Below, piece after piece: positions 2,078-56,381 of a stretch of DNA of 64,000 bases (within the stretch, counting starts at the first letter, position 1; every line of letters begins with the position of its first letter). The stretch is from contig NZ_RWJF01000001.1 in the NCBI RefSeq assembly GCF_003970925.1, forward strand, positions 2,164,501 through 2,228,500, read 5' to 3'. Source of the stretch: Sphingomonas ginkgonis (GTDB lineage Bacteria; Pseudomonadota; Alphaproteobacteria; Sphingomonadales; Sphingomonadaceae). The notes under the pieces are model-generated. The model was given only the letters and a program-made list of their open reading frames with translations, was not told where the DNA came from and searched no databases. The position numbers and the translations under genes were made by a program.

Positions 2078-3784
2078 TTACTTCTTCTTCTGGGCTTCCT
2101 TGAGCGCCGCGCCCAGGATGTCGCCCAGGCTCGCGCCGCTGTCGGAGCTGCCGTACTGCGCAACCGCCTGCTTCTCCTCGGCGATCTGCATCGCCTTGAT
2201 CGAGAAGGTCGGCTTCTTGGACCGGTCGAAGCCGGTAACCATCGCGTCGAACTTCTGCCCGACCTGGAAGCGCTCCGGACGCTGCTCGTCGCGATCGCGG
2301 CCGAGATCGGTGCGCTTGATGAAGCCGGTCGCGCCATCGTCGCCGATCTGCACTTCCAGCCCGCCGTCGCGGACCTCGAGGACGGTGACGGTAACCGTCT
2401 CGCCCTTGTTGGCGCCGGTGCCCGCACCCGCCGCGGACACGCCGCCACGCTCGAGCTGCTTCATGCCGAGGCTGATGCGCTCCTTCTCGACGTCGACGTC
2501 GAGCACGACCGCCTGGACCTGCTCACCCTTGTGGTGAAGGTTGAGCGCATCCTCGCCCGACACTCCCCAGGCGATGTCAGACATGTGGACCATGCCGTCG
2601 ACGTCGCCGTCCAACCCGACGAACAGGCCGAACTCGGTGGCGTTCTTGACCTCGCCCTCGACGGTCGAACCGACCGGGTGCTTGTCGGCGAAGTCTTCCC
2701 ACGGGTTGGTCTGGGCCTGCTTGAGGCCGAGACTGATGCGGCGCTTCTCGCCGTCGACCTCGAGAACCTTGACGTCCACTTCCTGCGAGGTGGAGACGAT
2801 CTTGCCCGGGTGGACGTTCTTCTTGGTCCAGCTCATCTCCGAGACGTGGACGAGGCCCTCGATGCCCGGCTCAAGCTCGACGAACGCGCCATATTCGGTG
2901 ATGTTGGTTACCCGGCCGCGGAACACCCCGTCGATCGGGTACTTGGCCTGCGCGCCCTCCCACGGATCGCTCTCGAGCTGCTTCATGCCGAGGCTGATGC
3001 GCTGGGTCTCGCGGTTGATGCGGATGATCTGCACCTTCACCGTGTCGCCGATGTTCAGCACCTCGCTCGGGTGCTGGACGCGCTTGTAGCTGATGTCGGT
3101 GACGTGCAGCAGGCCGTCGATCCCACCGAGGTCGACGAAGGCGCCGTAGTCGGTGATGTTCTTGACGACGCCGTCGATTACCTGGCCCTCGGCCAGCGAC
3201 TGGATGAGGCCGCTGCGCTGCTCGGCGCGGGTCTCTTCCAGGATGGCGCGGCGCGATACGACGATGTTGCCGCGGCGGCGATCCATCTTGAGGATCTGGA
3301 ACGGCTGCGGGATGTCCATCAGCGGGGTGACGTCGCGGACCGGGCGGATATCCACCTGGCTGCCGGGCAGGAAGGCCACGGCGCCGCCGAGGTCGACGGT
3401 GAAGCCGCCCTTGACCCGGCCGAAGATCACGCCGTCGACGCGGTTGCCGGCGCTGAACTCGCCCTCGAGCTTGTCCCAGGCAGCTTCGCGGCGGGCGCGG
3501 TCGCGGCTGAGCATGGCCTCGCCGCTCGCGTTCTCGACGCGGTCGACATAGACCTCGACTTCGTCGCCGACCTTCAACGTGCTCGGCTGGCCTGGCATCG
3601 AGAATTCGCGCAGCGGGACCCGGCCCTCGCTCTTGAGGCCGACGTCGATGATCGCGAGATCATTCTCGATTCCGGTCACGGTGCCCTTGACGACGCGGCC
3701 CTCGAAGGCCTCGTTCTCGCCGCCCAGGCTCTGATTGAGAAGCGCCGCGAAATCGTCGCGGCTTGGAAATGCCGTAGTGGCCAT
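2078..3784 (-). CDS. rpsA: 30S ribosomal protein S1
   Basis: A 568-residue protein starting MATTAFPSRDDFAALL, made of six consecutive S1 RNA-binding domains. The repeated signatures are visible: GVVKNITDYGAFVDLGGIDG, GRVTNITEYGAFVELEPGIEG and GEVKNATEFGLFVGLDGDVDG. Each is followed by an RISLGMKQ or RISLGLKQ block. It brings mRNA to the 30S subunit. The frame stays open for 68 codons upstream, but the start at 3784 gives the family's normal N-terminus and has GGAAG about 12 nt before it. The cmk gene usually found upstream is absent here. Confidence 0.96.
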   Translation of the reverse strand: MATTAFPSRDDFAALLNQSLGGENEAFEGRVVKGTVTGIENDLAIIDVGLKSEGRVPLREFSMPGQPSTLKVGDEVEVYVDRVENASGEAMLSRDRARREAAWDKLEGEFSAGNRVDGVIFGRVKGGFTVDLGGAVAFLPGSQVDIRPVRDVTPLMDIPQPFQILKMDRRRGNIVVSRRAILEETRAEQRSGLIQSLAEGQVIDGVVKNITDYGAFVDLGGIDGLLHVTDISYKRVQHPSEVLNIGDTVKVQIIRINRETQRISLGMKQLESDPWEGAQAKYPIDGVFRGRVTNITEYGAFVELEPGIEGLVHVSEMSWTKKNVHPGKIVSTSQEVDVKVLEVDGEKRRISLGLKQAQTNPWEDFADKHPVGSTVEGEVKNATEFGLFVGLDGDVDGMVHMSDIAWGVSGEDALNLHHKGEQVQAVVLDVDVEKERISLGMKQLERGGVSAAGAGTGANKGETVTVTVLEVRDGGLEVQIGDDGATGFIKRTDLGRDRDEQRPERFQVGQKFDAMVTGFDRSKKPTFSIKAMQIAEEKQAVAQYGSSDSGASLGDILGAALKEAQKKK

Positions 3785-4134
3785 GTGGTTGAAAATCTTC
3801 CGTAAGTCAGTTTTCATGCCGCCAGCCGGACCACCCTCGGTCGGCTTTCCATCTGGCGGGCCTGGAAACCCTGATCCGCCGCGCCGGCCCCGTGCCGGTC
3901 GCAGCATCCTGCCAACGATGGTCTGGTGAAGCGCTGCCTGGCAGCAGGAACGCGTCCGGCCCGGCGCCCGCTGGCGCCCCGGCTGCACACGCCCGCCAGA
4001 ATGACGAAGCGCCCCGCGAGTCCATCGCCCGCCGAACAGGCGCGCCCTTAGCCGATCACCGCCTCAGGGGCAAGGCGCCAGTGGCCCGCCTCCGCCGGTG
4101 GGCGGAAGCGGGCTGTAGGAGTGAAGGCGGAAGC
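3785..4134. other. rpsA leader and intergenic region
   Basis: A 350-bp gap between the esterase stop and rpsA. It should contain the rpsA promoter and a long 5' leader, where S1 autoregulation occurs in other bacteria. A GC-rich dyad (4087-4106) near the esterase end lacks a T-run. No convincing gene is seen. The part in frame with rpsA has no stop codon, but its composition is Arg/Pro/Gly-rich, as expected of non-coding GC-rich DNA. Confidence 0.5.
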
Positions 4135-5364
4135 CTAGCCGCGCTCGCCGCGCGAACGGTCCGCCGGCGGCAGCGGCGGCGGAGCCATGCCGTCGGCCGG
4201 GGGTGCCATGCCGGGCGCCATTCCCGGAGCCATGCCGGGACTGCCGCTCATCGGCATCGCCTGCCCGTAAAGCGCGGCGCGCAACCGAGCCCCGGCATAT
4301 TGCTGGGCCTGGCCGGCGGCGGCGATCACTGCGTCGGCACCAAAGAACTCGTGCGTGGTCCCCGGATACTCGCGCCGCTCGACCTGGACACCCTGCTGCT
4401 GGAGCCGCGCCGCCAGCTGCTCGCCCTCCGACCGGAGCGGGTCGATCTGCGCAGCGACGATCGTCACCGGGGCAAGGCCCTGGAGATTGGCGCCGACCAG
4501 GTTCATCCGCGGGTCCATCACGTCCTGCGGCGAGCGCGGGACATAGCGGAAGAACCAGGCCATGCCGGCACGGCCGAGTGGCATCGCGTTCGAACTGTCC
4601 TGGTAGCTCGGCGTGTTGAGGTCGTTGCCCGCAACCGGGTAGACCGAGAGGATCGCGCGCGGCTGCGGCAGCCCGGCGTCGCGCGCCTGCATCGCGGTGG
4701 CGACCGCGAGATTGCCGCCGGCGCTCTCGCCGGCCAGCGCCACCCGCGACGGGTCGCCGCCGATCGAGCGCGCGTTGCTCAGAACCCAGCGGTAGGCGGC
4801 CAGCGCGTCGTCGTGCTGCGCCGGAAAGGACGCCTCGGGCGCACGGCGGTAATCGACCGAAACGACGATCGCCTGCGCGTTGCGGGCGATCCCGCGCGCA
4901 CCGCCGGCATAGACCTTAGAGTCGGCGAGCACCCAGCCACCGCCATGGTAATAGACCACCACCGGCAGCGGGCCGCGGGCGTTGGTCGGGGTGATCAGCA
5001 GCGCGTTGAGCGGCCCCGCCGCGCCGCGGATCGAGATGTTGCGCTCGGTCGTGCCCGGCGGCGGGGTGGTCGGCCGCCCTTGCGCGCGAAGCACCGCTAT
5101 AACCCCGTCGGTGAAGCTCGGCTGCTGGCGCGCGGCGATCGGATCCAGCGTGTAGAAGGGCTTGGTCCCCATGGCGCGCAGCGCGTCGAGCACGGCCTGG
5201 TTGTCGGGCGACGGCTGGGCCCCGCTCGCCGGGATCCCGGGCTGCCCCTGCGGCATCGGCGCCATCGGCATCTGCGCCTGCGCCACGCCCGCCAGCGCGG
5301 CGGCCGCGGTCACGCCCGCGAGCCACATCATGCGGCGTCCGGTCCCTGTTCTCGCCATCGCCAT
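4135..5364 (-). CDS. Secreted alpha/beta hydrolase, HSL (family IV) esterase
   Basis: About 409 residues with a signal peptide (WLAGVTAAAALAGVAQA). It has the hormone-sensitive-lipase oxyanion motif HGGGW, the nucleophile elbow GESAGG, an acid region DPLRSEG and a catalytic His in GTTHEFF. It hydrolyses small acyl esters, probably in the periplasm. Both ends of the mature protein are Met/Pro-rich: MPMAPMPQGQPG after the signal peptide, and three to four MAPG-type repeats at the C-terminus (4150-4270). ATG 5364 has AGAGGA just upstream; an upstream TTG (5376) is less likely. It is transcribed divergently from the DUF4142 gene, with a shared palindromic stress-type promoter between them. Confidence 0.85.
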   Translation of the reverse strand: MAMARTGTGRRMMWLAGVTAAAALAGVAQAQMPMAPMPQGQPGIPASGAQPSPDNQAVLDALRAMGTKPFYTLDPIAARQQPSFTDGVIAVLRAQGRPTTPPPGTTERNISIRGAAGPLNALLITPTNARGPLPVVVYYHGGGWVLADSKVYAGGARGIARNAQAIVVSVDYRRAPEASFPAQHDDALAAYRWVLSNARSIGGDPSRVALAGESAGGNLAVATAMQARDAGLPQPRAILSVYPVAGNDLNTPSYQDSSNAMPLGRAGMAWFFRYVPRSPQDVMDPRMNLVGANLQGLAPVTIVAAQIDPLRSEGEQLAARLQQQGVQVERREYPGTTHEFFGADAVIAAAGQAQQYAGARLRAALYGQAMPMSGSPGMAPGMAPGMAPPADGMAPPPLPPADRSRGERG

Positions 5365-5400
5365 TTTTCCTCTCAAGATTAATGAAAATTCAGTGTCGGC

Positions 5401-5427
5401 GGAACGAGAGGAGTGGTGCCGGGTTCC
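5401..5427. promoter_or_regulatory. Bidirectional EcfG-type (general stress response) promoter
   Basis: GGAAC (5401-5405), 17 nt, then GTTCC (5423-5427). Read on plus it is GGAAC-N17-GTT, the alphaproteobacterial EcfG consensus. Because the flanks are a palindrome, the minus strand reads GGAAC-N17-GTT too. Predicted transcripts would start about 35 nt before the DUF4142 gene and about 30 nt before the esterase gene. Assignment rests on consensus match and position. Confidence 0.7.
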
Positions 5428-5468
5428 CTAGAAACCGCGAAATCGAGCGAATGGCGAGGAGCAAGCCA

Positions 5469-5999
5469 ATGAATTTCAAGCAGCTAATCTTGGCCGCCAC
5501 GGCCGCCGTCGGGCTTGCCGGGAGCGCGTCCGCGACCTTGCCGACTCCTAACCCCGCCGCGGCGACCCGCGACAACCAGGCGTTCTTGTTCAACGCCGGA
5601 GCTGGCGACATATTCGAGATCACCAGCAGCGTCATGGCCATCCAGCACAGCCAGAACCCGCAGGTCCGCGCGTTCGCCTCGATGCTCATCTCCGACCACA
5701 CCAACCTGACGAACAACACGCTGGCGACCGCCAAGGCCGCCGGCGTCATGGCGCCGCCGCCCGAACTGAGCCCGATGCAGAAGTCGATGCTGGCGCAACT
5801 CGCCGCCGCCTCCCCCGCCAGCTTCGACCGGGTCTACCTCCAGCAGCAGCTGCCGGCCCACCAGATGGCTTTGCAGATGATGCAAGGCTATGCGGCGCAG
5901 GGCGATGTCCCACAGCTCCGCCAGGCGGCGGGTGGCGCGGTGCCGATCGTGCAGAACCACATCCGCGAGGTGCAGCAGCTCCTCGGGTCCGTTCGCTAG
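5469..5999 (+). CDS. DUF4142 secreted protein
   Basis: A 176-residue protein with a signal peptide ending ASA, followed by a four-helix DUF4142 domain. Hallmarks include NQAFLFNAGAGDIFEITSS near the N-terminus and the helix with SQNPQVRAFASMLISDHTNL. Members are periplasmic, ferritin-like helical bundles of unknown activity and are often induced by stress. ATG 5469 is chosen because AGGAG lies 10 nt upstream and the signal peptide begins there; upstream in-frame codons give no signal. The EcfG-type promoter lies 44 nt upstream and supports a role in the general stress response. Confidence 0.88.
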   Translation: MNFKQLILAATAAVGLAGSASATLPTPNPAAATRDNQAFLFNAGAGDIFEITSSVMAIQHSQNPQVRAFASMLISDHTNLTNNTLATAKAAGVMAPPPELSPMQKSMLAQLAAASPASFDRVYLQQQLPAHQMALQMMQGYAAQGDVPQLRQAAGGAVPIVQNHIREVQQLLGSVR

Positions 6000-6052
6000 G
6001 CGACGGACCCGACGCCGCTCTGCCGCGTTCGAGCGATCGAACCGGAGATGAA

Positions 6053-6646
6053 ATGAGCGACGTCCGACTTCCCAGTGCCCGAGGTGCCCGGCTAATCTCG
6101 CTGGCCGGCTGGACGGTGATCGTCCTGTCGGCCGGCGCCGCGCTGCTCCCCGCCACCGGTCAGGTGAAGGCCGCGCTAATCGTCGGCGCGATGATGATGG
6201 GCGCCGGCATCGTCGAACTCGTCGCTGGCGCGGTCCGGCGCGAGACCCGGCCGATGGCGATGCTGGCCGGAGCGCTGACCCTCGCCGCCGGCCTGTGGTT
6301 CTGGTTCAAGCCGGGCCGCGAGTTCCTCCCGACCGTCTATGTCGTGACCGTCTGGCTGCTGGCGCGCGGCGTCATCCTCGCGATCGCCGGCTTTCGCACC
6401 GGGCCGGGCGTCCGGCGCTGGACCTGGATCAGCGCCGCGACCGACGTCGCCCTGTCGCTCCTGCTCATCGCCGGGCTCACCTCGGCGACCCTGGTCGTCA
6501 GCCTGTTCGGTCCCACCCCGGAAATCGTCGCCAGCTTCGCCTGGGTGCTCGCCGCCAGCTTCGTCACTACCGGGCTGATGCTGCTGGAAGTGGCGAGCTG
6601 CGCTTGGGACGACATCGAGACCCGCGAGGCCTCCGAGCGGCGCTAG
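6053..6646 (+). CDS. HdeD-like / DUF308 membrane protein
   Basis: A 197-residue protein with six hydrophobic segments arranged in pairs, as in the HdeD/DUF308 family of acid-resistance-associated inner-membrane proteins. GAGIVELVAGAVRRE and the following LAGALTLAAGLWFWFKPG match the repeat in this family. Molecular function is not established for the family. GGAG lies about 8 nt before the ATG. It follows the DUF4142 gene by 53 bp in the same direction, so it may share the stress-type promoter. Confidence 0.65.
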   Translation: MSDVRLPSARGARLISLAGWTVIVLSAGAALLPATGQVKAALIVGAMMMGAGIVELVAGAVRRETRPMAMLAGALTLAAGLWFWFKPGREFLPTVYVVTVWLLARGVILAIAGFRTGPGVRRWTWISAATDVALSLLLIAGLTSATLVVSLFGPTPEIVASFAWVLAASFVTTGLMLLEVASCAWDDIETREASERR

Positions 6647-7236
6647 CCGGCGATGCCGCTGAGATGGCTGACGAGGATCGAGGTGCCGATCCCGATCAGC
6701 CCCAGACCGCCGAGCAGTTCGACCAGCGGCCCGAACCGCGCGCCCATCGTCCGCCCGATCAGCAGGCCCGCGCTCGCCATGGTGAAGCTCGCCAGCCCGA
6801 TCGCCACCGCGACCGGCACGATGTTGACGTCGATGACCGCCAGCGTGACCCCTACCGCCGCCGCGTCGATGCTGGTCGCCACCGCGACGAGCAGCAGCCC
6901 GCCGAGCCCACGCTGCCGGGCCGGTGCCTCGTCAGTCGACCCCGCCTCGGCGTCGCCGTTGCGGAGCCGGGCGACCGCCTCCAGCGCCATCTTGCCGCCG
7001 ACCACCGCCAGCAGCAGGAAGGCGATCCAATGGTCGACCGCCGCGATGTAACGGCTGGCGGCGAGGCCGACCGCCCAGCCGAGAATCGGGGTCACAGCCT
7101 CGACCGCGCCGAACACCGCGCCGCCACGCAGCGCGCTGGTCAGTGAAGGACGGGTCGCGGCACCGCGCGCCATCGCCGCCGCGCAGGCGTCGGCCGACAT
7201 GCTGAAGGCCAGGACGGCCAGGGAAACGGGGGTCAT
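6643..7236 (-). CDS. mntP: Manganese efflux pump MntP
   Basis: A 197-residue, six-helix exporter of the MntP (formerly YebN, DUF204) family. Conserved acidic motifs are visible: SMSADACAAAMARG near the N-terminus and its internal repeat SIDAAAVGVTLA. The two halves are related, as expected for an inverted-repeat fold, and the Asp residues in these motifs coordinate Mn2+ in the family. It removes excess Mn2+ across the inner membrane. ATG 7236 is preceded by a riboswitch leader. Its 3' end overlaps the convergent HdeD-like gene by 4 bp. Confidence 0.92.
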   Translation of the reverse strand: MTPVSLAVLAFSMSADACAAAMARGAATRPSLTSALRGGAVFGAVEAVTPILGWAVGLAASRYIAAVDHWIAFLLLAVVGGKMALEAVARLRNGDAEAGSTDEAPARQRGLGGLLLVAVATSIDAAAVGVTLAVIDVNIVPVAVAIGLASFTMASAGLLIGRTMGARFGPLVELLGGLGLIGIGTSILVSHLSGIAG

Positions 7237-45614: not shown

Positions 45615-46724
45615 TTGAAAAACAAAACTCTGTCCAGGGTCCTTCATATTTCCGAGCGCGCCGCCTTCATCAACCAAGTCACCACTGCCGTACCGTCGCA
45701 GGATGTTCACAAGGCCTTTCTGGCCTGGGCCGAACAGCGCCTTCCGGATGAGCGGCAACGCTCCGTCTTCCGGCGCATGGCCGAGCGGTCGGGTATCAAC
45801 CATCGTTGGTCGGTGCTGCCCACGACGGCGGGTGGTGGTTCCCCGGTCGCCGACGGAGGTCTCTATGCGGATGCGCCGCCGCCGACATCGGAGCGGATGC
45901 GGATCTATGCGGAGACTGCGCCCGAGCTTGCGCTTGCAGCAATCGCGAAACTTGATGCCGGAGCAATCGCGCGGACTACTCACCTCGTGGTCGCAAGCTG
46001 CACGGGGTTCGTCGCGCCCGGGGTCGACCAGATCATTGCTCGCCGGCTCGGGCTCGCAAATCATGTCGAGCGCACGCTGATCGGGTTCATGGGCTGCTAT
46101 GCGGCGATCGCAGCGCTTCGGACCGCTTACCATATCGTTCGTTCGGAACCCGCCGCGCGCGTCCTCGTCGTAACGGTCGAACTTTCGACGCTGCATCTAC
46201 AGTTCACCGACGACATGGAGGCGCTCCTCGGCATGCTCCAGTTCGGTGACGGAGCCGCGGCGGCCATCGTCAGTGCCGACGCCACGGGGCTGCGGATCGA
46301 TCGGCCCTTCGCCATCGCGATGGAAGACAGCGAGACCCTCATCCAGTGGGCAATAGGCGAGACCGGCTTCGTCATGCAGCTGTCGGGGGAAGTGCCCGGG
46401 CGGATCGGGTCGGCGCTGGAAAAGCCATGGATCCGCGAGCGGATCCTCGACGCGGTCGACGCGGGAAAGATCGACAGCTGGGCAGTCCATGCCGGAGGCC
46501 GATCGATCCTGGATGCGGTGCAGCGCGGCTTCGATCTTCCGGCCAACGCGCTCGACCGGTCGCGCGAAGTGCTGGCCGACTTCGGCAACATGTCGTCCTC
46601 AACGCTGATGTTCGTTCTTGCAGCGATCCTCCGCCAATCGGATGAGGGCGAGCGCAGTGGCGTCGCGCTTGCCTTCGGACCAGGGCTGGCGGCCGAGGGG
46701 TTCCGATACGAGCGTGCGGCGTGA
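45615..46724 (+). CDS. Type III polyketide synthase
   Basis: 369 residues of the chalcone/stilbene synthase fold. The catalytic triad is present: Cys161 (GFMGCYAA), His292 (AVHAGGRS) and Asn325 (GNMSSST). It condenses an acyl starter with malonyl-CoA units to make resorcinol- or pyrone-type products. The start is TTG 45615 with AAAGGCGG next to it; no ATG fits the conserved N-terminus. It overlaps the methyltransferase gene by 4 bp (GTGA). Bacterial relatives often use long-chain fatty acyl starters for phenolic lipids, which is the favoured guess. Confidence 0.92.
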   Translation: MKNKTLSRVLHISERAAFINQVTTAVPSQDVHKAFLAWAEQRLPDERQRSVFRRMAERSGINHRWSVLPTTAGGGSPVADGGLYADAPPPTSERMRIYAETAPELALAAIAKLDAGAIARTTHLVVASCTGFVAPGVDQIIARRLGLANHVERTLIGFMGCYAAIAALRTAYHIVRSEPAARVLVVTVELSTLHLQFTDDMEALLGMLQFGDGAAAAIVSADATGLRIDRPFAIAMEDSETLIQWAIGETGFVMQLSGEVPGRIGSALEKPWIRERILDAVDAGKIDSWAVHAGGRSILDAVQRGFDLPANALDRSREVLADFGNMSSSTLMFVLAAILRQSDEGERSGVALAFGPGLAAEGFRYERAA

Positions 46725-47413
46725 TCGACCTCAAGGTTCGATCACGGCGAGAGGAGCAGATGGACTCCCCCCACCTCGCCTTCGAGGAATACGGGAAGGT
46801 CCTGGCCGATCTCGCCACGGTGAATTCGTGGACCTTGGCTGCTCGGCCGACCCTCTTGTTCCTGAAGTCGGCAGTCGGAGCTCGTCCGCGCTTTTCCGTT
46901 CTCGATGTCGGCTTCGGACGCGGCGACATGCTGTGTCAGATCGCCGCATGGGCGGTCCGAAACGGGAAGGAGGTCGAGCTGCATGGCGTCGATCTCAACC
47001 AGAAGAGCCTGGCGAGCGCGCTCGAGGCAACGGCGGGGCTGCCAGTTCAACTGCACGTCGGTGATTACAAGGACCTGCCCGGTCCATTCGATTGTGTCGT
47101 GAGCAGTCTGGTCGCGCATCACATGGGCGACTCCGAGCTGCATGACTTCATCGGCTACATGGAGGGTCACGCGAGGCTTGGCTGGCTGATCAACGACCTT
47201 CATCGTCACGCCTTCGCCTACCTCGGATATCCCTGGCTCGCTCGCCTGCTGCGCGTGCACCGCATCGTCCGCGAGGATGGGCAGCTCTCCATTGCCCGGA
47301 GTTTCCGCAGCGCAGATTGGGCCACTATTCTGGATGGCGCCGGCCTTCCCCCTGGTGCCGCGACGATCGCGCGCCACTTTCCGTTCCGGCTGTGCGTCGA
47401 ACGCCTGCGCTAA
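46721..47413 (+). CDS. Class I SAM-dependent methyltransferase of the PKS operon
   Basis: 230 residues. The SAM-binding motif I is VLDVGFGRGDML, followed by ELHGVDLNQKSL and a DCVVSSLVAHHMGDSEL region. The family is close to those found beside bacterial type III PKS genes. It probably O- or C-methylates the polyketide. GTG 46721 overlaps the PKS stop; ATG 46760 with a closely spaced GAGAGGAG is an alternative start. Confidence 0.87.
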   Translation: MIDLKVRSRREEQMDSPHLAFEEYGKVLADLATVNSWTLAARPTLLFLKSAVGARPRFSVLDVGFGRGDMLCQIAAWAVRNGKEVELHGVDLNQKSLASALEATAGLPVQLHVGDYKDLPGPFDCVVSSLVAHHMGDSELHDFIGYMEGHARLGWLINDLHRHAFAYLGYPWLARLLRVHRIVREDGQLSIARSFRSADWATILDGAGLPPGAATIARHFPFRLCVERLR

Positions 47414-48477
47414 TCATCGGCGGCGGCCCCGCCGGCTCAGCAGCCGCGATCATGCTCGCGCGAGGCGGCGTCGCGGCCACTCTTGTCGAGCGCCGGACGG
47501 AACCGCACGACGTGGTTTGCGGTGGGTTCCTGGGGTGGGACACTCTCGCGACGCTCGAGCGACTGAAGCTCGACATCTTCTCGCTCGGCGCACGGCCCAT
47601 CACCCGCCTTCGGCTCGTGAGCGGGCGCCATGTGCTTGAGGTCGGATTGCCACGGCAAGCGGCGGGATTTTCACGAAAGTCGCTGGACGCTGCTCTCCTG
47701 TCGCTTGCCGGTGCTGGAGGCGCGACCGTCAGGCGCGGCTTCGCGATTCGCGACGTCGATCCCGCTACGCGAACGGCGCGCCTCGAAGACGGTGAGGAAC
47801 TGACCGCCGAAGGGCTGTTCCTGGCGACGGGCAAGCATGAGCTGCGCGGCCTCGCGCGACCGCCAGACTTCACCAGAGAAGGCGCGGTCGGCTTGCGCAC
47901 CGTTCTCAGAGGCGGGCTCCAGGGCAAGCCGCTCGATGGTTGCGTTGAACTCCACCTTTTCGATGGTGGCTATGCGGGCTTGCTGATGCAGGAGGACGGC
48001 AGCTCCAACCTGTGTCTCTCGGTCACGAAGAAGCGATTTTCGCGGGCGAAATCGCCCGGCGCGCTGGTCAAGGCGCTCAAGGATGAAGCGCCGCTGCTGG
48101 GCGAGCGGGTCGGGCACGAAGACGAACGGCATTGGCAAGCTATCGCGGGCGTTCCTTATGGCTGGCGCGCGGATGATACGCGGGACGGGCTGTTCAGGCT
48201 TGGTGACCAGGCCGCGGTGATCTCCTCGCTGGCCGGCGATGGGGTCGCCATTGCACTGCAGAGTGGCATCTCGGCCGCGAAGGCTTTCCTGCGAGACGGA
48301 CCCAGCGGGGCGGCAGCGTATCAGACGGCATTTTCAAGACAGACCAAAGTCCCCCTGGGCCTCGCCGATCTTCTTCGCGGCGCCGCCGAGCGCCCTCTAA
48401 GCCGTCCTATCCTCATGCGGCTTGCTGCCGTGCCGGGCTTGGCGAGTTGGGTCTCGCGGCTGACCCGGATCACCTAG
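47392..48477 (+). CDS. FAD-dependent oxidoreductase of the PKS operon
   Basis: 361 residues of the geranylgeranyl-reductase/PHBH-like flavoprotein group. It has ALIIGGGPAGSAAAIMLARGG for FAD binding and FRLGDQAAVISSLAGDGVAIALQSG as the second FAD motif. GTG 47392 lets the dinucleotide fold begin correctly and overlaps the methyltransferase by 22 bp. It likely hydroxylates or oxidises the polyketide, for example to a quinone. Confidence 0.87.
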   Translation: MRRTPALIIGGGPAGSAAAIMLARGGVAATLVERRTEPHDVVCGGFLGWDTLATLERLKLDIFSLGARPITRLRLVSGRHVLEVGLPRQAAGFSRKSLDAALLSLAGAGGATVRRGFAIRDVDPATRTARLEDGEELTAEGLFLATGKHELRGLARPPDFTREGAVGLRTVLRGGLQGKPLDGCVELHLFDGGYAGLLMQEDGSSNLCLSVTKKRFSRAKSPGALVKALKDEAPLLGERVGHEDERHWQAIAGVPYGWRADDTRDGLFRLGDQAAVISSLAGDGVAIALQSGISAAKAFLRDGPSGAAAYQTAFSRQTKVPLGLADLLRGAAERPLSRPILMRLAAVPGLASWVSRLTRIT

Positions 48478-48550
48478 AACCCGTAAAGAGGGCATGGGCA
48501 GCCGCGACTTTCCGGATTGAACCTAGCGAGCAGTCGCGTAAGCCGATGTG

Positions 48551-50281
48551 ATGTCCACTCGCGTCCGTAATGCCTTGGCGGCTGTCCTACTTTCCATCGG
48601 CCTGCTCTTCTTCGTCCAGCTTCGTTCAAAACCTGCCGTCAGCGTCATCCCTGGTCTTGCCGGACCCACGACCAGGACACTCGTCCCGCCGCCGGTCGCA
48701 CCCCATGTCGAAGACTATGGCGGCGGCGGCGCAACGCGGCTCGGCGTGCTGGTGACCGATGTCGATTCCGACTGGATCGGCCTGGTACGCTCGCTGCGTG
48801 CGCGGGGCATCCCGGCGAATTTCACCCGCGACCCGGCCGAGGCGCTGCGGCATCGCGCGGTGCTGGCCTATCCGTTGATTTCGGGCAAGGTACTGAGCGG
48901 GGACCAGATCCGCGCCCTGGCGGCCTTCGTTCACCGCGGTGGCGGTCTGATGACGTTCGACCTGGCGGGCGGCGGCCTCGAACCCCTCTTCGGCATTCGT
49001 GGGGAGGTCCCGGGACGCGCCCGCTCAGCCATCCGCTGGGCTGGGAACAGCCGCAGGGAGGCTGCGAGCACCCCGCTGAACGCGCAGGGCATGGAAGCAA
49101 AGCTCGGAAGCCAAGGTCTTGCAGTCAGTACGGCCATGGTCTCGGCGCGATTCGACGATGGCGCGCCGGCACTGACCTGCCGGGCCGCGGTCGGACGAGC
49201 GTGCATCCTCGGTGTCGATGTCGGCTCCTATGCTAACCGAGCCTTCAACCTGCGCGCCGAGCCGCTCGCCGGCGGCTATGTCAATGGAGAGGCCGGTGGC
49301 CTCGACAGGCTGGTTGACGCGGTGCGCGACTTCTACGTTGCCAGCAAGCCGAACGCCTTCCTGATCGGAACCGCCCCGGCGCCGTACAGTGGAAGCCTGA
49401 TCGTCACCCATGATCTCGACGCCGGCAAGGCGCTGACCGACGCGCTTGCCCTCTCCGAGGCACTGCGCCGGCGCAAGGTCGACGCTACCTTCTTCATGCA
49501 GACGAAATATGTCCGCAACTGGAACGACGATGTCTTCTTCCGCGCGGACACGCTGCCGCAGCTCCGACGCCTACGGGCTATGGGGATGGAGGTCGGCAGC
49601 CATAGCGTATCCCATGCGCGGGCGTTCAATCAGTTCGAGTTGGGCGATGGAACCGAAGCCTACCCGGACTATCGGCCGTTCGTCAGCAGCCAGACGACCG
49701 CCCGCGGCGGAACGGTGCTGGGCGAGCTGCGCGTCTCCAAGCATCTCCTCGACGCCACGACCGGGCAGCAGACCATCGCCTTCCGGCCCGGGCACCTGCG
49801 CAATCCGGAGGTCTTGCCGCAGGCGCTCGCGGCGACCGGATACCGGTACACATCGGACCTGACTGCCCAGAATGCCCTGACCAACTATCCCTTCCAGCTG
49901 GCCTACGGCCGTCACGGGCCGAGTCTGGTACCCGTCTGGGAGTTCCCGGTCACGATCGAGGACGAGGCAGCGCCGCCCTTCGCAGCACGGCTCGGCGCGT
50001 CAATCGCGCTGGTGGAGCGGATCGCTTCCCACGGCGGCGTGGCGACGTTGCTGGTTCATCCCGACCATGGGCCGAAGCGCGATGCCGAGCTCGCATTGAT
50101 CGATCGGCTTCGCGGCCGATACTGGATCGGCGGGCTGAGCCGGTTTGGCGAATGGTGGCGAGCTCGCGATCTGTCCGCAATCGACTATGACGGGACGCAC
50201 GTCACGGCCCGCGGTCCGCTGCCGATCCACTCGGTGACCGTCTTCCTTCCCCGATCAGGCAAGACCCTGACGATCCGATAA
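48551..50281 (+). CDS. Exported polysaccharide-deacetylase-like protein
   Basis: 576 residues with an N-terminal anchor/signal (ALAAVLLSIGLLFFVQL). The first half (about 60-260) looks like a glutamine-amidotransferase-like domain without obvious catalytic residues. The second half has NodB/CE4 motifs: IVTHDLDAGKAL (metal Asp), VGSHSVSHARAF (His pair) and FRPGHLRNPEVL. It may de-N-acetylate an extracellular glycan. It follows the PKS operon after 73 bp on the same strand, but need not be co-transcribed. Confidence 0.75.
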   Translation: MSTRVRNALAAVLLSIGLLFFVQLRSKPAVSVIPGLAGPTTRTLVPPPVAPHVEDYGGGGATRLGVLVTDVDSDWIGLVRSLRARGIPANFTRDPAEALRHRAVLAYPLISGKVLSGDQIRALAAFVHRGGGLMTFDLAGGGLEPLFGIRGEVPGRARSAIRWAGNSRREAASTPLNAQGMEAKLGSQGLAVSTAMVSARFDDGAPALTCRAAVGRACILGVDVGSYANRAFNLRAEPLAGGYVNGEAGGLDRLVDAVRDFYVASKPNAFLIGTAPAPYSGSLIVTHDLDAGKALTDALALSEALRRRKVDATFFMQTKYVRNWNDDVFFRADTLPQLRRLRAMGMEVGSHSVSHARAFNQFELGDGTEAYPDYRPFVSSQTTARGGTVLGELRVSKHLLDATTGQQTIAFRPGHLRNPEVLPQALAATGYRYTSDLTAQNALTNYPFQLAYGRHGPSLVPVWEFPVTIEDEAAPPFAARLGASIALVERIASHGGVATLLVHPDHGPKRDAELALIDRLRGRYWIGGLSRFGEWWRARDLSAIDYDGTHVTARGPLPIHSVTVFLPRSGKTLTIR

Positions 50282-50472: not shown

Positions 50473-51720
50473 TCAACGACCGGGTATCAGCGTCACCGGT
50501 ATTCGCAGGGTCGTGCGCACGTCGGGCGCGTCGCGAGTAGCACCGATTTCCACCCCCCAGTTGAGACTGGCGTCGTCAGTGACCCGGTAGGTCACACCGA
50601 ACAGGAAACGTCCAAGCTGCAGGTCCCGCGTCTTGGTCGTAACCGGCGTGGCCGTGCTGTTTGGAGCTGTCGAGACGGTGGTAGTCCGTGTCCCAAACGT
50701 CCAGTTGTGGGTGTAGCCGAAATTGATCGTTGCCCGCTCGTTGAGGCCGATTCCGATACCGGCAGTCGCAGAAACGGAGTCGCCCGGATCGACGTGGGTG
50801 ATCCGGACCGGGGCAATCAGCGTATCGACGCTTCGTCCAAAATTATGTGCATAGCCGAGGCTTCCGAACAGGACGGCAGGGTCGGTTGGAAGGATCGCCG
50901 TCATGCTCGGTGCTACGCTCCAGAAGCCGGCGCCTGTCGCCGCCCGCAGCTCCCGTCCGAGATCGTCACGCGGCACGGCAAAGGGACTTTCTCCCGTCGG
51001 AGCATTCACCTGCAGGTTGGCAACGAGGAACGGCCAGCCACCTCCCCCGCGTGTTACCTGGTACCGCAAGCTTGCCTCGACATCGCCGATGCCATTCCCG
51101 CGCGCGCTGCTCGCGATGGTTCCATCGGCCGATCCGTCAGCGAACGGCCGGATTGGTGCGAGCACGCTGCTGTCGGAGCGATGGATGAGCGGCAGCTTGG
51201 CACCGATCTCAAGCCGGTCAGTCAGTCCGTAGCGAAATCCCGGCGTTGCCTCGAGCACATCCTGATGACTTTCGTTGATATCGAAGATGCCGATCAGTAG
51301 CGTGTCCAGCAATGCGATGCCGCGGAACAGCGCCCGATTGCGGTCCGCCCTGGTATAGCCAAGCAGTAACTCACCGGTCAGCTGCCCTCGCCGAGTAATG
51401 AGCGCCCCCTGTTCGCCAAGGACTGCCACTTCGGGCGGCCGGTCAACATCCTTCGGTGCCTCTCCCACAGGTTGTGCGAGTCCAGGTTCTGTGGTGTTTG
51501 AGGCGGTCGGGCTCGCTACCGTTGAAGGCGTGGCAGCAGCAGCCGGGCCTGGAGACAGGCTATCGACGCGCTGCTCGAGCTGCTGGATCCGCTGCATGGC
51601 GGCCTGGAGCTGCGACCGGAGCGCGTCTACCTCTGCCTGCTGAGGTGCCGCGACAGCAGGAGGCGCGCCGCTCAAAGTTGCGAGGATCAAGGCTCCGAGA
51701 AAGAGAGTCTTCCGGCGCAT
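50473..51720 (-). CDS. fapF: FapF-like outer-membrane amyloid secretion pore
   Basis: 415 residues: signal peptide, a short coiled coil (VDALRSQLQAAMQRIQQLEQRVDSL, about 30-54), a Pro/Ala/Thr linker and a beta-barrel of about 12 strands ending RIPVTLIPGR. This layout is that of FapF, the trimeric pore that exports Fap amyloid subunits with its N-terminal helix as a plug. GGAGG precedes ATG 51720. It is the last gene of the Fap-like operon. Confidence 0.78.
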   Translation of the reverse strand: MRRKTLFLGALILATLSGAPPAVAAPQQAEVDALRSQLQAAMQRIQQLEQRVDSLSPGPAAAATPSTVASPTASNTTEPGLAQPVGEAPKDVDRPPEVAVLGEQGALITRRGQLTGELLLGYTRADRNRALFRGIALLDTLLIGIFDINESHQDVLEATPGFRYGLTDRLEIGAKLPLIHRSDSSVLAPIRPFADGSADGTIASSARGNGIGDVEASLRYQVTRGGGGWPFLVANLQVNAPTGESPFAVPRDDLGRELRAATGAGFWSVAPSMTAILPTDPAVLFGSLGYAHNFGRSVDTLIAPVRITHVDPGDSVSATAGIGIGLNERATINFGYTHNWTFGTRTTTVSTAPNSTATPVTTKTRDLQLGRFLFGVTYRVTDDASLNWGVEIGATRDAPDVRTTLRIPVTLIPGR

Positions 51721-51734
51721 CTTGCCTCCGAACG

Positions 51735-52298
51735 TCAACGGGAAAGAAGGTTGGCGGTGGCCAACGCAAGCTCGTCGATCCGCGGCAGGGCCGTCCCCAG
51801 ATTGTTCATGTTCGCGCCAGCCAGCTTGAGGTCGATGGTCGTCGCGACGTCGATGGCCCTGCCATCGGCCTGGTTTTGGATCACAGTCCCGGCAGCATCC
51901 CCGATCAGGGTGCTGACGTATGTTCCACCATCGGCGAAGCGGATCCTCGTGCCATTGCCCTCTTGTTCGATGGCCACGGGTCCGAGCGACGAGGGCGAGA
52001 CCGTTGCCAGGCCGCCCGACCCGTCGGCTCCCGCGACCGACAGCGAAGCCGACGATTCCTGGATGCTATATTGGCTGCGCAGCACGAGTTGGCCATCGAT
52101 CCGCGCCTCGCTGACCACCGCCATGGCGACCCGCAGCCCATTCGGGAGGTCGAACCCGCCCCGCAGCGAGGCGAGCACGGGTTCGGGGACCGGCGTTCCG
52201 AAAGACGTAGATCGCAAGCCGCCACTCGTGAGCGGGGCGGCGTGCGCGCTGGTCAGAGGCGCGCCGGCAAGGAGAAGCAACAAAGCTACTCGACGCAT
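51735..52298 (-). CDS. FapE-like exported protein
   Basis: 187 residues with a signal peptide ending AHA. The segment VPEPVLASLRGGFDLPNGLRVAMAVVSEARIDGQLVL contains the LRGGF...NGL motif found in Fap-associated proteins. A mid-region of beta-strands with VIQNQADGRAIDV follows. Position between the C39 protease and the pore matches fapE. It is translationally coupled to fapD (TGATG). The identification is by context and this motif. Confidence 0.6.
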   Translation of the reverse strand: MRRVALLLLLAGAPLTSAHAAPLTSGGLRSTSFGTPVPEPVLASLRGGFDLPNGLRVAMAVVSEARIDGQLVLRSQYSIQESSASLSVAGADGSGGLATVSPSSLGPVAIEQEGNGTRIRFADGGTYVSTLIGDAAGTVIQNQADGRAIDVATTIDLKLAGANMNNLGTALPRIDELALATANLLSR

Positions 52299-52993
52299 CA
52301 GAACTCTCCGAAGAAGGGCGCCGTGAGCCACAGCGCCTGAAGGCTGACAGGATTGGTGAACCGACCGTTCGTCGGCGCGCGAGCGACGCTGGCCCATTGG
52401 GCCCCGGCGTTGAACCGGCCTGCACGGGTGTCCGGATCGATGACGAAGTAAATGCCATTCCAAGCTTGTTCGAAGTGAGCGATGGGCTCAATCATCAGAC
52501 CGCGAGAGGGATCTCCGACGAGCACATTCTCGCCGGCAATGCCCTTGATCACGACGAAGTGCTTGTACCCTTTCATGTCGACCAGCGCGATGCCGGGGAC
52601 CTGGCGGCGCTGGATGTCGCGGAGGGATACTTTGAAGCCGTTGGCGGCCAGGCCGCGCGCCTCGAGATATCGCTTCATGTCGAGGAGCGAAAAGCCGAGC
52701 TTTCGGATTTGAGCTCGGTCACCGTTGCGCCACATGCCCTGGAACACCTGGGCTTCATCGACCGGGAGATCGTAGTGAAACCGCAGTAGCGACGCCAGCG
52801 AAGCGGAGCCGCAACTGAAGTCATACCGCTGCTTGAGCACGGTCGCGAACTTGCGGTCGAGCATGGTCCGGATCGGAGCACTGACATCGCCGATCGGGGT
52901 GGGTAGCAGGAACCTGGGTCCGACGGGCATTGCGGCCGACAGGAACAGGGCTGTCGCCATGCTTGCCACTGCCCGGCCAAGTCGAGCGGTCAT
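52298..52993 (-). CDS. fapD: FapD-like C39-family cysteine peptidase
   Basis: 231 residues with a signal peptide (SMATALFLSAAMPVG). A C39 peptidase domain has catalytic Cys61 in QRYDFSCGSASLASLL, His145 in YKHFVVIKG and Asp161 in VGDPSRG. FapD is a periplasmic protease needed for Fap amyloid biogenesis. The ATG overlaps the upstream small gene's stop (ATGA). Confidence 0.85.
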   Translation of the reverse strand: MTARLGRAVASMATALFLSAAMPVGPRFLLPTPIGDVSAPIRTMLDRKFATVLKQRYDFSCGSASLASLLRFHYDLPVDEAQVFQGMWRNGDRAQIRKLGFSLLDMKRYLEARGLAANGFKVSLRDIQRRQVPGIALVDMKGYKHFVVIKGIAGENVLVGDPSRGLMIEPIAHFEQAWNGIYFVIDPDTRAGRFNAGAQWASVARAPTNGRFTNPVSLQALWLTAPFFGEF

Positions 52994-53331
52994 GGTGCCG
53001 GTATGATGGCGATGTTCAGGGTCATGGCGGAGTTGATCGCCACGTTGTTGCCGCTGTTGGCATTGACCATCGTCAATCCCGACGCATTCTGGAAACTGCT
53101 GTCGGAAAAGGTCACGGTTCCAGTCACGCTCGAACCATTGACACTGTTGTTGCTCGACCGGGCATTCAGCGTGCTGGTCGCATTCTGATTTCCCGTCCCT
53201 CGCGCCGTGGTGGCGGCGAGCTTGTCCTCGGTAAGCGCCGGTGCTTCGAACCCCGACACGGTGGGAAGATTGCGCACGCTGGGCAGCGGCGTCGTGCCGG
53301 CCAGATCGGCGGCGACAATAATCCAGAACAT
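52990..53331 (-). CDS. Small Fap-operon protein, FapA/FapB-like
   Basis: 113 residues, Asn/Ser/Thr-rich, ending in alternating strands NASGLTMVNANSGNNVAINSAMTLNIAI. It resembles the C-terminal segments of Fap subunits. No classical signal peptide is seen at its start (MFWIIVAADLAG...). It sits between the main subunit gene and fapD and may be a minor amyloid subunit or FapA-like chaperone. GAGAGG lies 8 nt before the ATG. Confidence 0.6.
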   Translation of the reverse strand: MFWIIVAADLAGTTPLPSVRNLPTVSGFEAPALTEDKLAATTARGTGNQNATSTLNARSSNNSVNGSSVTGTVTFSDSSFQNASGLTMVNANSGNNVAINSAMTLNIAIIPAP

Positions 53332-53404
53332 GGGCGCCTCTCTCTCGATGTGGGAAGGTCCGGCCAGGCGCGGGAAGAACGCGCCTGACCGGTCGTTCCG
53401 CAAC

Positions 53405-54670
53405 CTACGGAGTGATGTTGCCGGTGGTCGCCGTGACGCTGATGTTCGCGTTCTGCGAAGCAGCCGCCCCCGTGTTCTGGTTGATTGCGCCCATGCCGGC
53501 GAAGTTGGCGAAGGATCCGCCCTGGTTCGACAGGCTGGTGTTCGCAGCGCCCGCCGTGCCGGTCGAGCCATTATAGTTGACCGACACGCCGGTGACGTAG
53601 CTGCCAAGCGCCGCCGACGACACCATTGAGCCGGAGCCGAAGCTTCCGGACGTCCGGGCCGATCCAGTCATGTCCGACATGTCGCGATTGTCGTTGCCGC
53701 TGTCAGTCAGCGAATTATCAATCGCATAGCCGCCATTGTTGGCAGCCACCCGACCGCCATTGGCCGTGCTGCTGTTCCTGTTGTCGGCTGCTATTCCGCC
53801 GTTGTTTGCGGCCACGGACCCGGCAGTAGACGTGCTGTTGTTCGTAGTGTTGGTGGCAGTTCCGCCATTGTTGGCGCCAACTGCTCCTGCATTCACGCTG
53901 CTCTGGTCGCGAGCGTCGGTGGCGGTTCCGCCATTGTTCGCGCCGACCGTTCCGGAATTGGCGCTGCTCTGATCGCGAGCGTCGGTGGCGGTACCACCAT
54001 TGTTGGCACCGACAGATCCTGCGTTAGCGCTGCTTTGATCACGCGCGTCGGTCGCGGTCCCGCCGTTGTTGGCACCAACGGTCCCTGCATTCGCCGAGCT
54101 GTTGTCGGTCCAGCTGTTGTCCGTGGTGCTGTTGTCGGTGTTGTCGGTGGCGGTACCGCCGTTGTTGGCCCCGACCGTCCCGGCATTTGCCGAGCTGTTG
54201 TCGGTTGTCGACCGATCGGTCGTGCTGTTGTCGGTTGAACTATTGTCGGTCGTGCTGTTGTTTGTGTTGTCGGTCGCGGTGCCGCCGTTGTTGGCGCCGA
54301 CCGTTCCCGCGGCAGCACTGCTGGCATCATTATAGTTGAGGTGGGTGGATGCGTCCGTCGAGCTGCTGCCGTTGTTCGCGGAATAGGCGCCATTGGCCGA
54401 ACTGCTGTTCGTCGAGGTCGCTCCATTGTTGGCCGAGTAGGCGCCGGAGTTGCTGCCATCCCAAGCTGATGACCCGTTGTTGGCACCAAGAGTGCCAGCG
54501 TTCGCTGAGCTACTGTCGGTCCTACTTCTTACCGAATTGTCGGTTGCCGTGCTGCTGTTGTTCGCAGCGTGGCTACCACTAGCGTCGCCCGAGATGGTTG
54601 ATTGGGCCAGTGCTGGCGTGGCGATCGTCAATGCTGCAACGGATGCAGTCGCGAGCAGAATTTTAAGCAT
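53405..54670 (-). CDS. fapC: Repeat-rich FapC-like amyloid fibre subunit
   Basis: 421 residues, exported (signal peptide MLKILLATASVAALTIATPALAQ). Residues about 30-321 hold about 12 short repeats with a G-x-V-x-ANNG-G-T-A-T-D core separated by Asn/Ser/Thr/Asp-rich linkers. The last 100 residues end in the Fap-like GAINQNTGAAASQNANISVTA. There is no Cys. The composition and context point to the major functional amyloid subunit. AGAGGAAG precedes ATG 54670. Classical FapC has three long repeats; this has many short ones. Confidence 0.75.
   Translation of the reverse strand: MLKILLATASVAALTIATPALAQSTISGDASGSHAANNSSTATDNSVRSRTDSSSANAGTLGANNGSSAWDGSNSGAYSANNGATSTNSSSANGAYSANNGSSSTDASTHLNYNDASSAAAGTVGANNGGTATDNTNNSTTDNSSTDNSTTDRSTTDNSSANAGTVGANNGGTATDNTDNSTTDNSWTDNSSANAGTVGANNGGTATDARDQSSANAGSVGANNGGTATDARDQSSANSGTVGANNGGTATDARDQSSVNAGAVGANNGGTATNTTNNSTSTAGSVAANNGGIAADNRNSSTANGGRVAANNGGYAIDNSLTDSGNDNRDMSDMTGSARTSGSFGSGSMVSSAALGSYVTGVSVNYNGSTGTAGAANTSLSNQGGSFANFAGMGAINQNTGAAASQNANISVTATTGNITP
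53708..54583 (-). repeat. Tandem coding repeats of the amyloid subunit
   Basis: About 12 imperfect repeats of roughly 48-75 bp, each encoding an ANNG-containing unit. Three to four neighbouring units (around 53895-54060) are almost identical, including GTATDARDQSS. This suggests recent expansion by slippage or recombination. Confidence 0.85.
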
Positions 54671-55079: not shown

Positions 55080-56381
55080 TCAGCTGCTCGATTGGTCGTC
55101 GGCCGCGCGCAGCTGCGCCTGGCCTTCGTTGAGCTCCCGTGCGCGGTCCTTCTGTTCCTGTGCGTGAAGCGTATCGGAGCGATTGGGCATCAGCACCGGG
55201 ACCGTCAGGCAGATGCTCTGGGTGGGGAGCACGTCCCTCCAGTCCGCGATCAGCTGCTTGTAAGCGGTGCCTACGGGGCGGATGTTGCGATCGAGATCGA
55301 ACAGCCCGACCGGGCTCACACGGTTGTTCTTTTCGCGGAGTGCCGTATCCCAATCCATCTGGTCGGTCAGCGAAAACCAGGTAAAGCCGACGATCGGCAC
55401 GCCATCGTTGCGGACTCGCAGCACGTTGGCCCATTCCTTCCAGAGCCAGTCGACCGCCTCCGTCCCGCGCGGACCCTGCGCGATGTTCGTCTCGGTATGC
55501 ATGACCGGGAGGTGATAGCGGTGATGATATTGGTGGGTGATGCCGTCGTAGCCCAGCACCTCCCCCGCGGGGCAGGTCACGCCATTTGACGAGACCCGGT
55601 GCTCGTTGGTGACGTAGTAGTCGTTCCCCATGATGCAGTGCTGCTTGAGGTGATTGGCCGGGAAGAAGTCATATTCCTCCCGCGTCATGCCGTTATCGAG
55701 CAGATACTGGTACATCGACGAATCCACCCGGCGCCCGTAATTGAGGTCGAGCGAGAGGAAGCGCATTTCATTGAGATGCTCGGCTGCCGCGATCGCCGCC
55801 GGGTTCTCGGCGTGGAAATATTCGCTCGATTCGCTCTGGACGAAGATGGCGTCGGGGCGGACATCGAGGATCGCCTGCATCGCAAGCACGTTCGCCTTGA
55901 CGATGTGCTTGAGCGCGGTGACGAACCCCTGGTCGCTCGACAGCTGCTCGTTCCACCAGCCGTACTTGGCGGAGAACATGGCGCAAATATACATTTCGTT
56001 GATAGGCGTATAGAGTTGTACCCAAACGAACCTCTTGGCGAATTCGCGAGCATAGACCGCGAACAGGGCAGGAAAATCCGGGTTCTGGAAGTTGCCGAGC
56101 CAGTCGGGCAATCCGAAGTGGCAAAGATCGACAATCGGAACGATGTTCCTTCGCTTCAGGTCGGCAAACGTCTCGTCGGCGAAGCTCCAGTCGAACCGTT
56201 CCGCCGCTGCCCAGCTAGTGTGGATCGGCGGTCCGTAGCGTAGGAATTGGAGCCCGAGATCGTCGACCAGCTCGAAATCCTCGCGCCAGCGGGCATAGTG
56301 CCCGCAACTCTCCATCTGATCGACCCGCGTCCTGCCTCCGTCGATCGTGGGGACGCTGTTCTCGATCCCGGTGCAGAACAT
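55080..56381 (-). CDS. Glycoside hydrolase family 1-like enzyme
   Basis: 433 residues. The GH1-type fold shows FADLKRRNIVPIVDLCHFGLPDWL, TPINEMYICAMF with acid/base Glu129, and MHTETNI with nucleophile Glu297. These motifs are variant (normally T-N-E-P and I-T-E-N-G), so this is an atypical subfamily. Substrate is unknown. No signal peptide. The C-terminus (about 395-433) is charged and Gln-rich. It lies alone within the IS-bounded block. Confidence 0.78.
   Translation of the reverse strand: MFCTGIENSVPTIDGGRTRVDQMESCGHYARWREDFELVDDLGLQFLRYGPPIHTSWAAAERFDWSFADETFADLKRRNIVPIVDLCHFGLPDWLGNFQNPDFPALFAVYAREFAKRFVWVQLYTPINEMYICAMFSAKYGWWNEQLSSDQGFVTALKHIVKANVLAMQAILDVRPDAIFVQSESSEYFHAENPAAIAAAEHLNEMRFLSLDLNYGRRVDSSMYQYLLDNGMTREEYDFFPANHLKQHCIMGNDYYVTNEHRVSSNGVTCPAGEVLGYDGITHQYHHRYHLPVMHTETNIAQGPRGTEAVDWLWKEWANVLRVRNDGVPIVGFTWFSLTDQMDWDTALREKNNRVSPVGLFDLDRNIRPVGTAYKQLIADWRDVLPTQSICLTVPVLMPNRSDTLHAQEQKDRARELNEGQAQLRAADDQSSS

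Follow-up and report, generated by a model that had tools for sequence, protein, structure and literature searches.

A putative Fap-type secretion operon of Sphingomonas ginkgonis and a candidate C39 leader in its FapE-position protein

Which protein does the peptidase of a Fap-type operon cut, and what does such an operon export? The question is raised by five tightly packed minus-strand genes at 50473–54670 of a 64,000-nucleotide stretch of the Sphingomonas ginkgonis genome (NZ_RWJF01000001.1, positions 2,164,501 to 2,228,500), hereafter the window. A preliminary description took their products, P0001 to P0005 in the order of transcription, for a complete Fap functional amyloid operon, the Pseudomonas set with a different subunit; coordinates, strand and number of genes are all as it described them. 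The substrate of FapD has been called unclear in published work, and a 2017 study reported Fap proteins to have no canonical C39 sequence. From sequence comparison we propose that the FapD-like peptidase P0003 cleaves the FapE-position protein P0004 after LASLRGG, and that FapD cuts the homologous RG(R/K) of Pseudomonas FapE.

P0003 matches the NCBIfam FapD model (E=2.3e-43, 148.1 bits, below the equivalog cut-off of 330) and the C39 peptidase family PF03412 (E=1.1e-16). Its residues C61, H145 and D161 are invariant in an alignment with nine homologues (10 sequences), which bears out the Cys/His/Asp of the preliminary description. P0005 matches the NCBIfam FapF model over nearly its full length (E=7.6e-38, 130.4 bits; equivalog cut-off 700) and the FapF chains of known crystal structure, 5o65, 5o67 and 5o68 (E=2.3e-25 to 2.7e-26). 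None of P0001, P0002 and P0004 scored above the curated cut-off of a Pfam family or hit an NCBIfam family at E≤1; P0001 and P0002 gave no match to FapB or FapC (NF058557, NF058558) at E≤1, and P0004 none to the FapE model NF058559 even at E≤10. Among 26 FapE-position proteins, chosen by hand from the set of relatives and 18–35% identical to P0004, three match NF058559 (best E=1.3e-4). In a separate scan the protein of L080 matched model positions 10–54 only (E=0.021). Curli families were matched by none of P0001–P0005.

A C39 peptidase with its catalytic residues and, by eye, a signal sequence thus adjoins a pore of the FapF family. By these matches the five-gene set is a Fap-type secretion operon, related to that of Pseudomonas yet distinct from it, and probably exports a repetitive surface protein. 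This much of the preliminary description stands; the outcome that it named as refuting, a peptidase and a pore without profile matches to FapD and FapF, was checked for and did not occur. "Complete" was too strong, as neither FapB nor FapC matches, and the Pseudomonas set with another subunit does not fit a peptidase that lies outside the canonical FapD clade and FapD and FapF scores below the equivalog cut-offs. The profiles of the putative pilus proteins FilB and FilC also match the window (E=4.8e-31, 108.1 bits, and E=4.7e-14, 52.5 bits; the cut-offs of 475 and 630 bits are not reached), and would be consistent with a non-amyloid surface protein, an adhesin or pilus-like, exported by way of FapD and FapF in the manner of Fil-type or Neisseria nap clusters. 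In the nap island a C39 peptidase and a FapF homologue occur together with microcin-like peptides bearing a GG motif (PMC11798529). We consider this reading rather unlikely, given that the FapD and FapF models outscore the Fil models at this locus and that the Asn-rich C-terminal module of P0001 looks, by eye only, amyloid-type.

Relatives were drawn from 396 genomes of the window's order (P0003 matched in 72, at E≤1e-3), from a phylum-wide draw of 398 genomes (FapD matched in 93 at E≤1e-3, in eight above the cut-off) and from named GTDB genomes (the best 80 of 562 related stretches), with one genome per species in the sample. FapF was matched in 127 of the 134 fetched loci having FapD (124 distinct FapD sequences; 13 of the 134 loci had been picked by FapF). 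In a midpoint-rooted tree of 163 FapD sequences, the canonical repeats of FapB/FapC (imperfect, GN-x-G-N-x2-AG-x2-NQQ-x-N) were recognised by pattern in 18 loci. The window FapD belongs to a clade of 128 leaves (support 0.971), none of them from a locus labelled canonical, and the clade of the canonical repeats lies apart from it. By record titles, and for the best 80 of the 562 stretches, this clade holds Sphingomonas, Sphingobium, Novosphingobium, Erythrobacter, Parvularcula and Caulobacter, together with Marinobacter, Thioalkalivibrio, Halomonas, Methylobacter, Acidithiobacillus and Cupriavidus. The tree places the window peptidase in a separate, broad proteobacterial clade.

Leaders cut by the C39 domains of peptidase-containing ATP-binding cassette transporters (PCATs) read L(-12)xxxE(-8)L(-7)xxxxG(-2)G(-1); they form a helix from -10 to -4, and specificity is set by -4 (PMC6959990). 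In P0004 the segment placed behind the signal peptide reads V(-12)PEPVL(-7)ASLRG(-2)G(-1)F, with L at -4 and R at -3. It possesses the hydrophobic -12, the Leu -7, the Gly-Gly at -2/-1 and a predicted helix from -10 to -4, which AlphaFold places at residues 40–46 with low local confidence (predicted local distance difference test, pLDDT, 53–60). The LRGGF motif of the preliminary description is thus present; its likely role as a C39-type cleavage leader had been missed.

The same segment recurs in the gene after FapD across the sample. In 139 of the 143 FapD entries (142 loci) an open reading frame (ORF) follows directly downstream; the other four have no candidate. The strict pattern, RG[GKRA] followed by a hydrophobic residue, is found in 124 of the 139 loci; of the 15 remaining, 14 have variants recognisable by eye (MHGKF, VTGKF, MRAGF and similar), and L179 could not be assigned. 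In the 139 aligned leaders, whose counts are partly preset since a hydrophobic -7 and the R/G/A pattern served as selection filters, position -12 is L in 55, V in 51, M in 13 and I in 11 (hydrophobic in 130), -10 is D in 101, -8 is E in 78, -7 is L in 133 and M in six, -3 is R in 129, -2 is G in 133 and A in six, -1 is G in 101, K in 26, R in eight and A in four, and +1 is F in 106. When the 26 divergent FapE-position proteins were aligned with MAFFT with no motif supplied, the only invariant columns were R47, G48, G49 and N143. The residue at -1 tracks the peptidase clade: all 27 proteins of the canonical clade have K or R there, and 101 of the 112 others have G. Profiles of canonical and window-type FapE matched with 97.7% probability when signal and leader were included and 0.2% when they were removed, so that the leader region is what the two groups detectably share. 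A fold search with a model of the protein at the P0004 position found nothing at E≤0.001 (best E=0.046, template modelling score about 0.2), and NCBIfam scans for known GG-leader models returned only TIGR04149 (E=0.17), in one protein.

Published work on Pseudomonas bears on the same point. In whole-cell mass spectrometry of strain UK4, peptides were recovered all through FapA to FapD, and FapE alone lacked N-terminal peptides, over about 70 residues; a C38A mutant of FapD abolishes FapC secretion (both PMC5557850). The RGG leader might instead stay uncleaved and serve FapF or FapD as a signal for docking or export, with FapD acting as a chaperone, as some C39-like proteins do without processing (PMC6173800). 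We find this very doubtful in view of the Cys, His and Asp invariant in the ten aligned sequences, the C38A phenotype and the missing FapE peptides.

Could other proteins of these loci carry such a leader? A weight matrix built from 128 FapE leaders, that of the window left out, was used to score the Asn-rich protein nearest upstream. In loci outside the canonical clade, at least 6 bits were reached by 47 of 116 upstream proteins, against 15 of 1134 other ORFs of the same loci (Fisher p=5e-40) and against 19 of 2860 shuffles (made from all 143 upstream proteins); at least three of those 15 control genes are themselves FapA-like proteins of the same clusters (one in L150, two in L227). The looser pattern [LIVMF]x4[LM]x4[GA][GKRQMS] occurs in 109 of the 116 upstream proteins, but also in 458 of 2320 shuffles. 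In the canonical clade, where the upstream neighbour is FapC-like, none of 27 reached 6 bits, nor did any of 60 FapC-like subunits outside that clade. Proteins that are FapA-like by position and likeness (L150 2754–3173; L227 8001–8444 and 12269–12703; L228 2910–3254) have in common a leader-like motif and a V-(I/L/M)-LWDE segment; that of L228, the only one of them run against the models, matched none.

The peptidases of L253, L257 and L258 match FilB (E=6.8e-84 to 1e-92), and the two upstream proteins compared, those of L253 and L257, match FilA (E=4.5e-13 and 3.3e-10) and DUF6160. The upstream proteins of all three loci carry a related segment, e.g. MDDSSLSSVTGQAGI, behind the signal peptide; it may be a C39 leader of the same class.

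What is exported would be P0001, whose relatives occupy the same operon position in other sphingomonads. It contains 11 exact ANNG and 12 ANN (in 2000 composition-preserving shuffles ANNG averaged 0.23, with a maximum of 3); the preliminary description counted about 12 ANNG, and its statement that the subunit has no Cys is correct. Consecutive 66-base units agree in up to 21 of 22 residues and in 46–54 of 66 bases, so that neighbouring repeats are near-identical in protein and not in DNA. The pattern suggests old copies maintained by selection, with recent expansion unsupported; a DNA identity of 70–82% between consecutive repeats argues against recent length change, and with it against the active length variation formerly suggested.

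In an alignment of 23 subunit sequences the invariant columns (L355, V359, G392, N397, N399, T400, G401, Q406 and N407) are all C-terminal, and the middle region is replaced in relatives by other Asn/Ser/Asp/Thr-rich sequence. When homologues of P0001 were sought and the 7987 best candidates scored, a single protein reached E≤1e-3. A hidden Markov model (HMM) of the C-termini of P0001 and two subunits of L026 found 56 ORFs at E≤1e-4, among which are 15 small upstream proteins. This three-sequence HMM did not link the P0001 and P0002 C-termini in one step, P0002 being absent from its results even at E≤10. After two further rounds with hits included, P0002 was matched at 7e-28 and 113 of 142 loci were reached; of the 29 missed, 26 are canonical-clade. 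The C-termini of P0001 and P0002 are thus probably related, through intermediates, and by its conservation the C-terminal module is a better candidate for the assembling part than ANNG.

An ordinary Fap amyloid with a core of many short ANNG repeats, varying in number, would accord with the strong over-representation of ANNG, with the 22 residues by which the last regular units are spaced, nearly the length of a curli repeat, and with the recurrence by eye of an AANNGxT-type unit in several alpha- and gammaproteobacterial relatives. Such a core is nonetheless unlikely: relatives swap the middle region for other low-complexity sequence and keep the C-terminal module, and the DNA of consecutive repeats has diverged. 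The structure prediction of the subunit that had been suggested, when run on P0001 with 23 sequences, returned no fold (mean pLDDT 41.5, no secondary structure), and a search of the PDB with the P0001 profile gave nothing meaningful (best E=0.06). A short-repeat amyloid core was rejected as a candidate on these two results. The earlier claim of a fibre built from the short repeats likewise finds no support, ANNG being the least conserved part and the C-terminal module the conserved one.

From the observed gene order, families, leader motif and conserved module we infer the following course of cleavage, export and fibre formation, which we think probable: an operon of the non-canonical clade in which a periplasmic FapD-like peptidase trims a FapE-like protein and so enables export of P0001 through the FapF pore. 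The operon proteins would cross the inner membrane by Sec and lose their signal peptides. P0003 would act in the periplasm, recognise the C39-type leader of P0004 (V-12, L-7, L-4, R-3, G-2, G-1) and cut after RGG, before Phe; in many relatives the small protein may be cut as well. Trimmed P0004 would then let, or help, unfolded P0001 pass the trimeric P0005 pore. Outside, the C-terminal module of P0001, perhaps seeded by the related module of P0002, would assemble a surface fibre on which the ANNG tract forms a variable exposed spacer.

A number of observations weigh against this course. P0004 has Val at -8 in place of the consensus Glu, and two of the 139 leader anchors were wrong, those of L161 and L179 having fallen in coiled coils. 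K or R at -1, as in many FapE, is unusual for C39 sites, and the cut could therefore fall one residue earlier. The leader-like segment of P0002 has L at -12 and -7, with A at -2 and R at -1 replacing Gly-Gly, and scores 2.8 bits; P0002 also lacks a convincing signal peptide at its present ATG. AlphaFold gave P0001 no structure. FapF, the intended negative control for the matrix, was not clean, with 42 of 136 at 6 bits or more. In UK4 the coverage of FapA argues against FapA-type processing in Pseudomonas (PMC5557850), and the FapE gap of about 70 residues exceeds signal plus leader (about 38 residues in the FapE of L219), so that the spectra support FapE as the target and not the exact bond. 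P0002 begins MFWIIVAADLAG (53331–53200), with no basic n-region, unlike its relatives; its export signal may be degenerate or its start mis-set. The FapF hits are partly coiled-coil noise and partly a motif that looks real, lying behind the coiled coil. When a stricter pattern was sought ahead of the barrel, 32 of 155 pores had it, against 97 of 3100 shuffles; these are 15 of 35 canonical-clade pores and 17 of 120 others, P0005 not among them. In the FapF of L128, L100, L168 and others, (L/I)xxxx(L/A)xxxRG(A/T/G) stands between coiled coil and barrel at about residues 70–105; the motif is in keeping with a published proposal that FapF, too, may be cut by FapD (PMC5557850).

More widely, we lean towards the view that all such FapD are periplasmic counterparts of the C39 peptidases of bacteriocin exporters, with FapE as universal substrate, a small FapA/FapB-type protein as second and the FapF linker sometimes as third. 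Each substrate would bear a second, double-glycine-type leader behind its signal peptide, removed by FapD to license export through FapF. FilB/FilA would form a further branch, G versus K/R at -1 would divide the enzyme clades, and canonical Pseudomonas Fap would be one branch among them.

Features of the locus are collected in the table. Start and stop codons overlap by a few bases between P0002 and P0003 and between P0003 and P0004, and 14 bases separate P0004 from P0005; co-transcription of the five genes is therefore likely. A sigma-70 promoter scan found none (1.2 expected). Signal sequences, judged by eye, are of Sec type on all components, with P0002 a possible exception. The G+C content of the operon (0.60–0.66) is inside the range of its flanks and hence gives no compositional sign of transfer.

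Table. Coordinates in the window of the operon, its sequence elements and the flanking genes
Feature	Position	Strand	Remarks
P0001, FapC position, major-subunit candidate	53405..54670	-	421 residues; signal peptide; Asn/Ser/Gly/Thr/Ala-rich; no Cys
Hypervariable ANNG repeat region of P0001	53681..54496	-	11 exact ANNG; last regular units 22 residues (66 bp) apart
Conserved C-terminal module of P0001	53408..53632	-	F-x-N-F-A-G...N-x-N-T-G...S-Q-N; all nine invariant columns at 355–407
P0002, FapA/FapB-like position, small protein	52990..53331	-	113 residues; leader-like segment, then Asn-rich C-terminus
Degenerate C39 leader-like segment LTEDKLAATTAR of P0002	53200..53235	-	2.8 bits; control 95th percentile 2.3
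P0003, FapD-like C39 peptidase	52298..52993	-	231 residues; N-terminal signal sequence (by eye); Q55, C61, H145, D161
P0004, FapE-position protein	51735..52298	-	187 residues from ATG at 52298; LASLRGGF
Candidate C39 double-glycine leader motif VPEPVLASLRGG of P0004	52155..52190	-	21.7 bits, matrix trained without the window; proposed cut before Phe
P0005, FapF-like outer-membrane pore	50473..51720	-	415 residues; signal peptide, coiled-coil-like segment, linker, barrel region, PTG motif at 241
Flanking polysaccharide deacetylase	48548–50281	+	
Flanking family-1 glycoside hydrolase-like gene	55080–56381	-	

A row of type III polyketide synthase-like, methyltransferase and FAD-dependent genes lies at 45615–48474. 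About 0.3 Mb away in the same genome, a curli cluster (L261, G000 C1:2526500-2538500; 3237–7086, minus strand) contains CsgG (PF03783, E=2.7e-60), CsgF (PF10614, E=1.9e-33) and two curlin-repeat proteins, of 457 residues with eight repeat matches and of 272 residues with four. With this separate cluster the sphingomonad may make two fibre types.

How far does Fap-type secretion extend? Dueholm et al. (2013) confined Fap to the Beta-, Gamma- and Deltaproteobacteria and assigned the many further FapD and FapF hits to larger protein families (PMC3792158), and a 2018 review lists fapD-fapF pairs in five additional phyla (PMC6173800); such pairs outside fap operons were therefore already known from these two reports. 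In the literature searched, which left most subscription papers outside its coverage, no description of the subunits or leaders of these pairs was found. A search for Fap functional amyloid with FapC and FapF in alphaproteobacteria found none, and one for Sphingomonas Fap surfaced only Pseudomonas-titled work. The C39-type leader in FapE-position proteins, not found in the same literature, is the new point. Its main value is a specific candidate FapD cleavage site, since a family-wide motif names the exact residues to mutate in sphingomonads and in Pseudomonas. That the canonical clade ends in RG-R/K and not GG suggests why the site may have escaped notice. Surveys that require FapB/C repeats (PMC12822426) should miss the present clade, its candidate subunits having no such repeats, and if they do, the spread of Fap-type secretion may be underestimated.

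P0005 was matched at E≤1e-3 in 24 of 149 relatives, and the best non-self match in the window's genus is at 5.5e-34 with 29% identity; the window-type operon is accordingly patchy in its distribution. A second Fap lineage (e.g. L036, L099) shares the Sphingomonadaceae host, and in L036 has the order subunit - D - E - (extra gene) - F on one strand. It differs from the window in its FapC match (L036, NF058558, E=1.2e-20) and in its FapE matches (L036, E=3.2e-18; L099, E=2.1e-20). This lineage comprises L035–L038 and L097–L109, with canonical repeats, by pattern, in most loci; the extra gene between fapE and fapF lies at 6684–7316 in L035 and at 7852–8442 in L036.

The closest known system is fapABCDEF of Pseudomonas, with which the window shares the order subunit - D - E - F, a FapD-type C39 peptidase and a FapF-type pore. 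Pseudomonas-type FapE carries the same leader segment, ending RGR or RGK (IELKDQELATLRGRY in L219, in which FapE, FapA, FapB and FapC all score above their NCBIfam cut-offs). The window differs in having no FapB, FapC or FapE model match, FapD and FapF scores far below the equivalog cut-offs, a separate FapD clade, and a leader that ends in GG rather than GR or GK. The Fil putative pilus system (FilA, FilB, FilC) likewise has a C39 peptidase adjoining a FapF-like pore, but the profile match of the window to it is weaker, its subunits are others and its pore directly abuts the peptidase. The Neisseria nap island (NapP, NapF) resembles the window in its C39 peptidase, FapF homologue and GG-motif substrates (PMC11798529). 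Its substrates are small cationic peptides linked to autolysis, in contrast to the Asn-rich repeat proteins found here. With the PCAT/C39 exporters (PCAT1, LahT, ComA) the window shares the C39 fold and the leader consensus L-12, E-8, L-7, G-2, G-1 (PMC6959990). Their C39 domain is cytoplasmic and fused to the transporter, whereas that of the window is a separate protein with a signal peptide, whose substrates would cross by Sec first.

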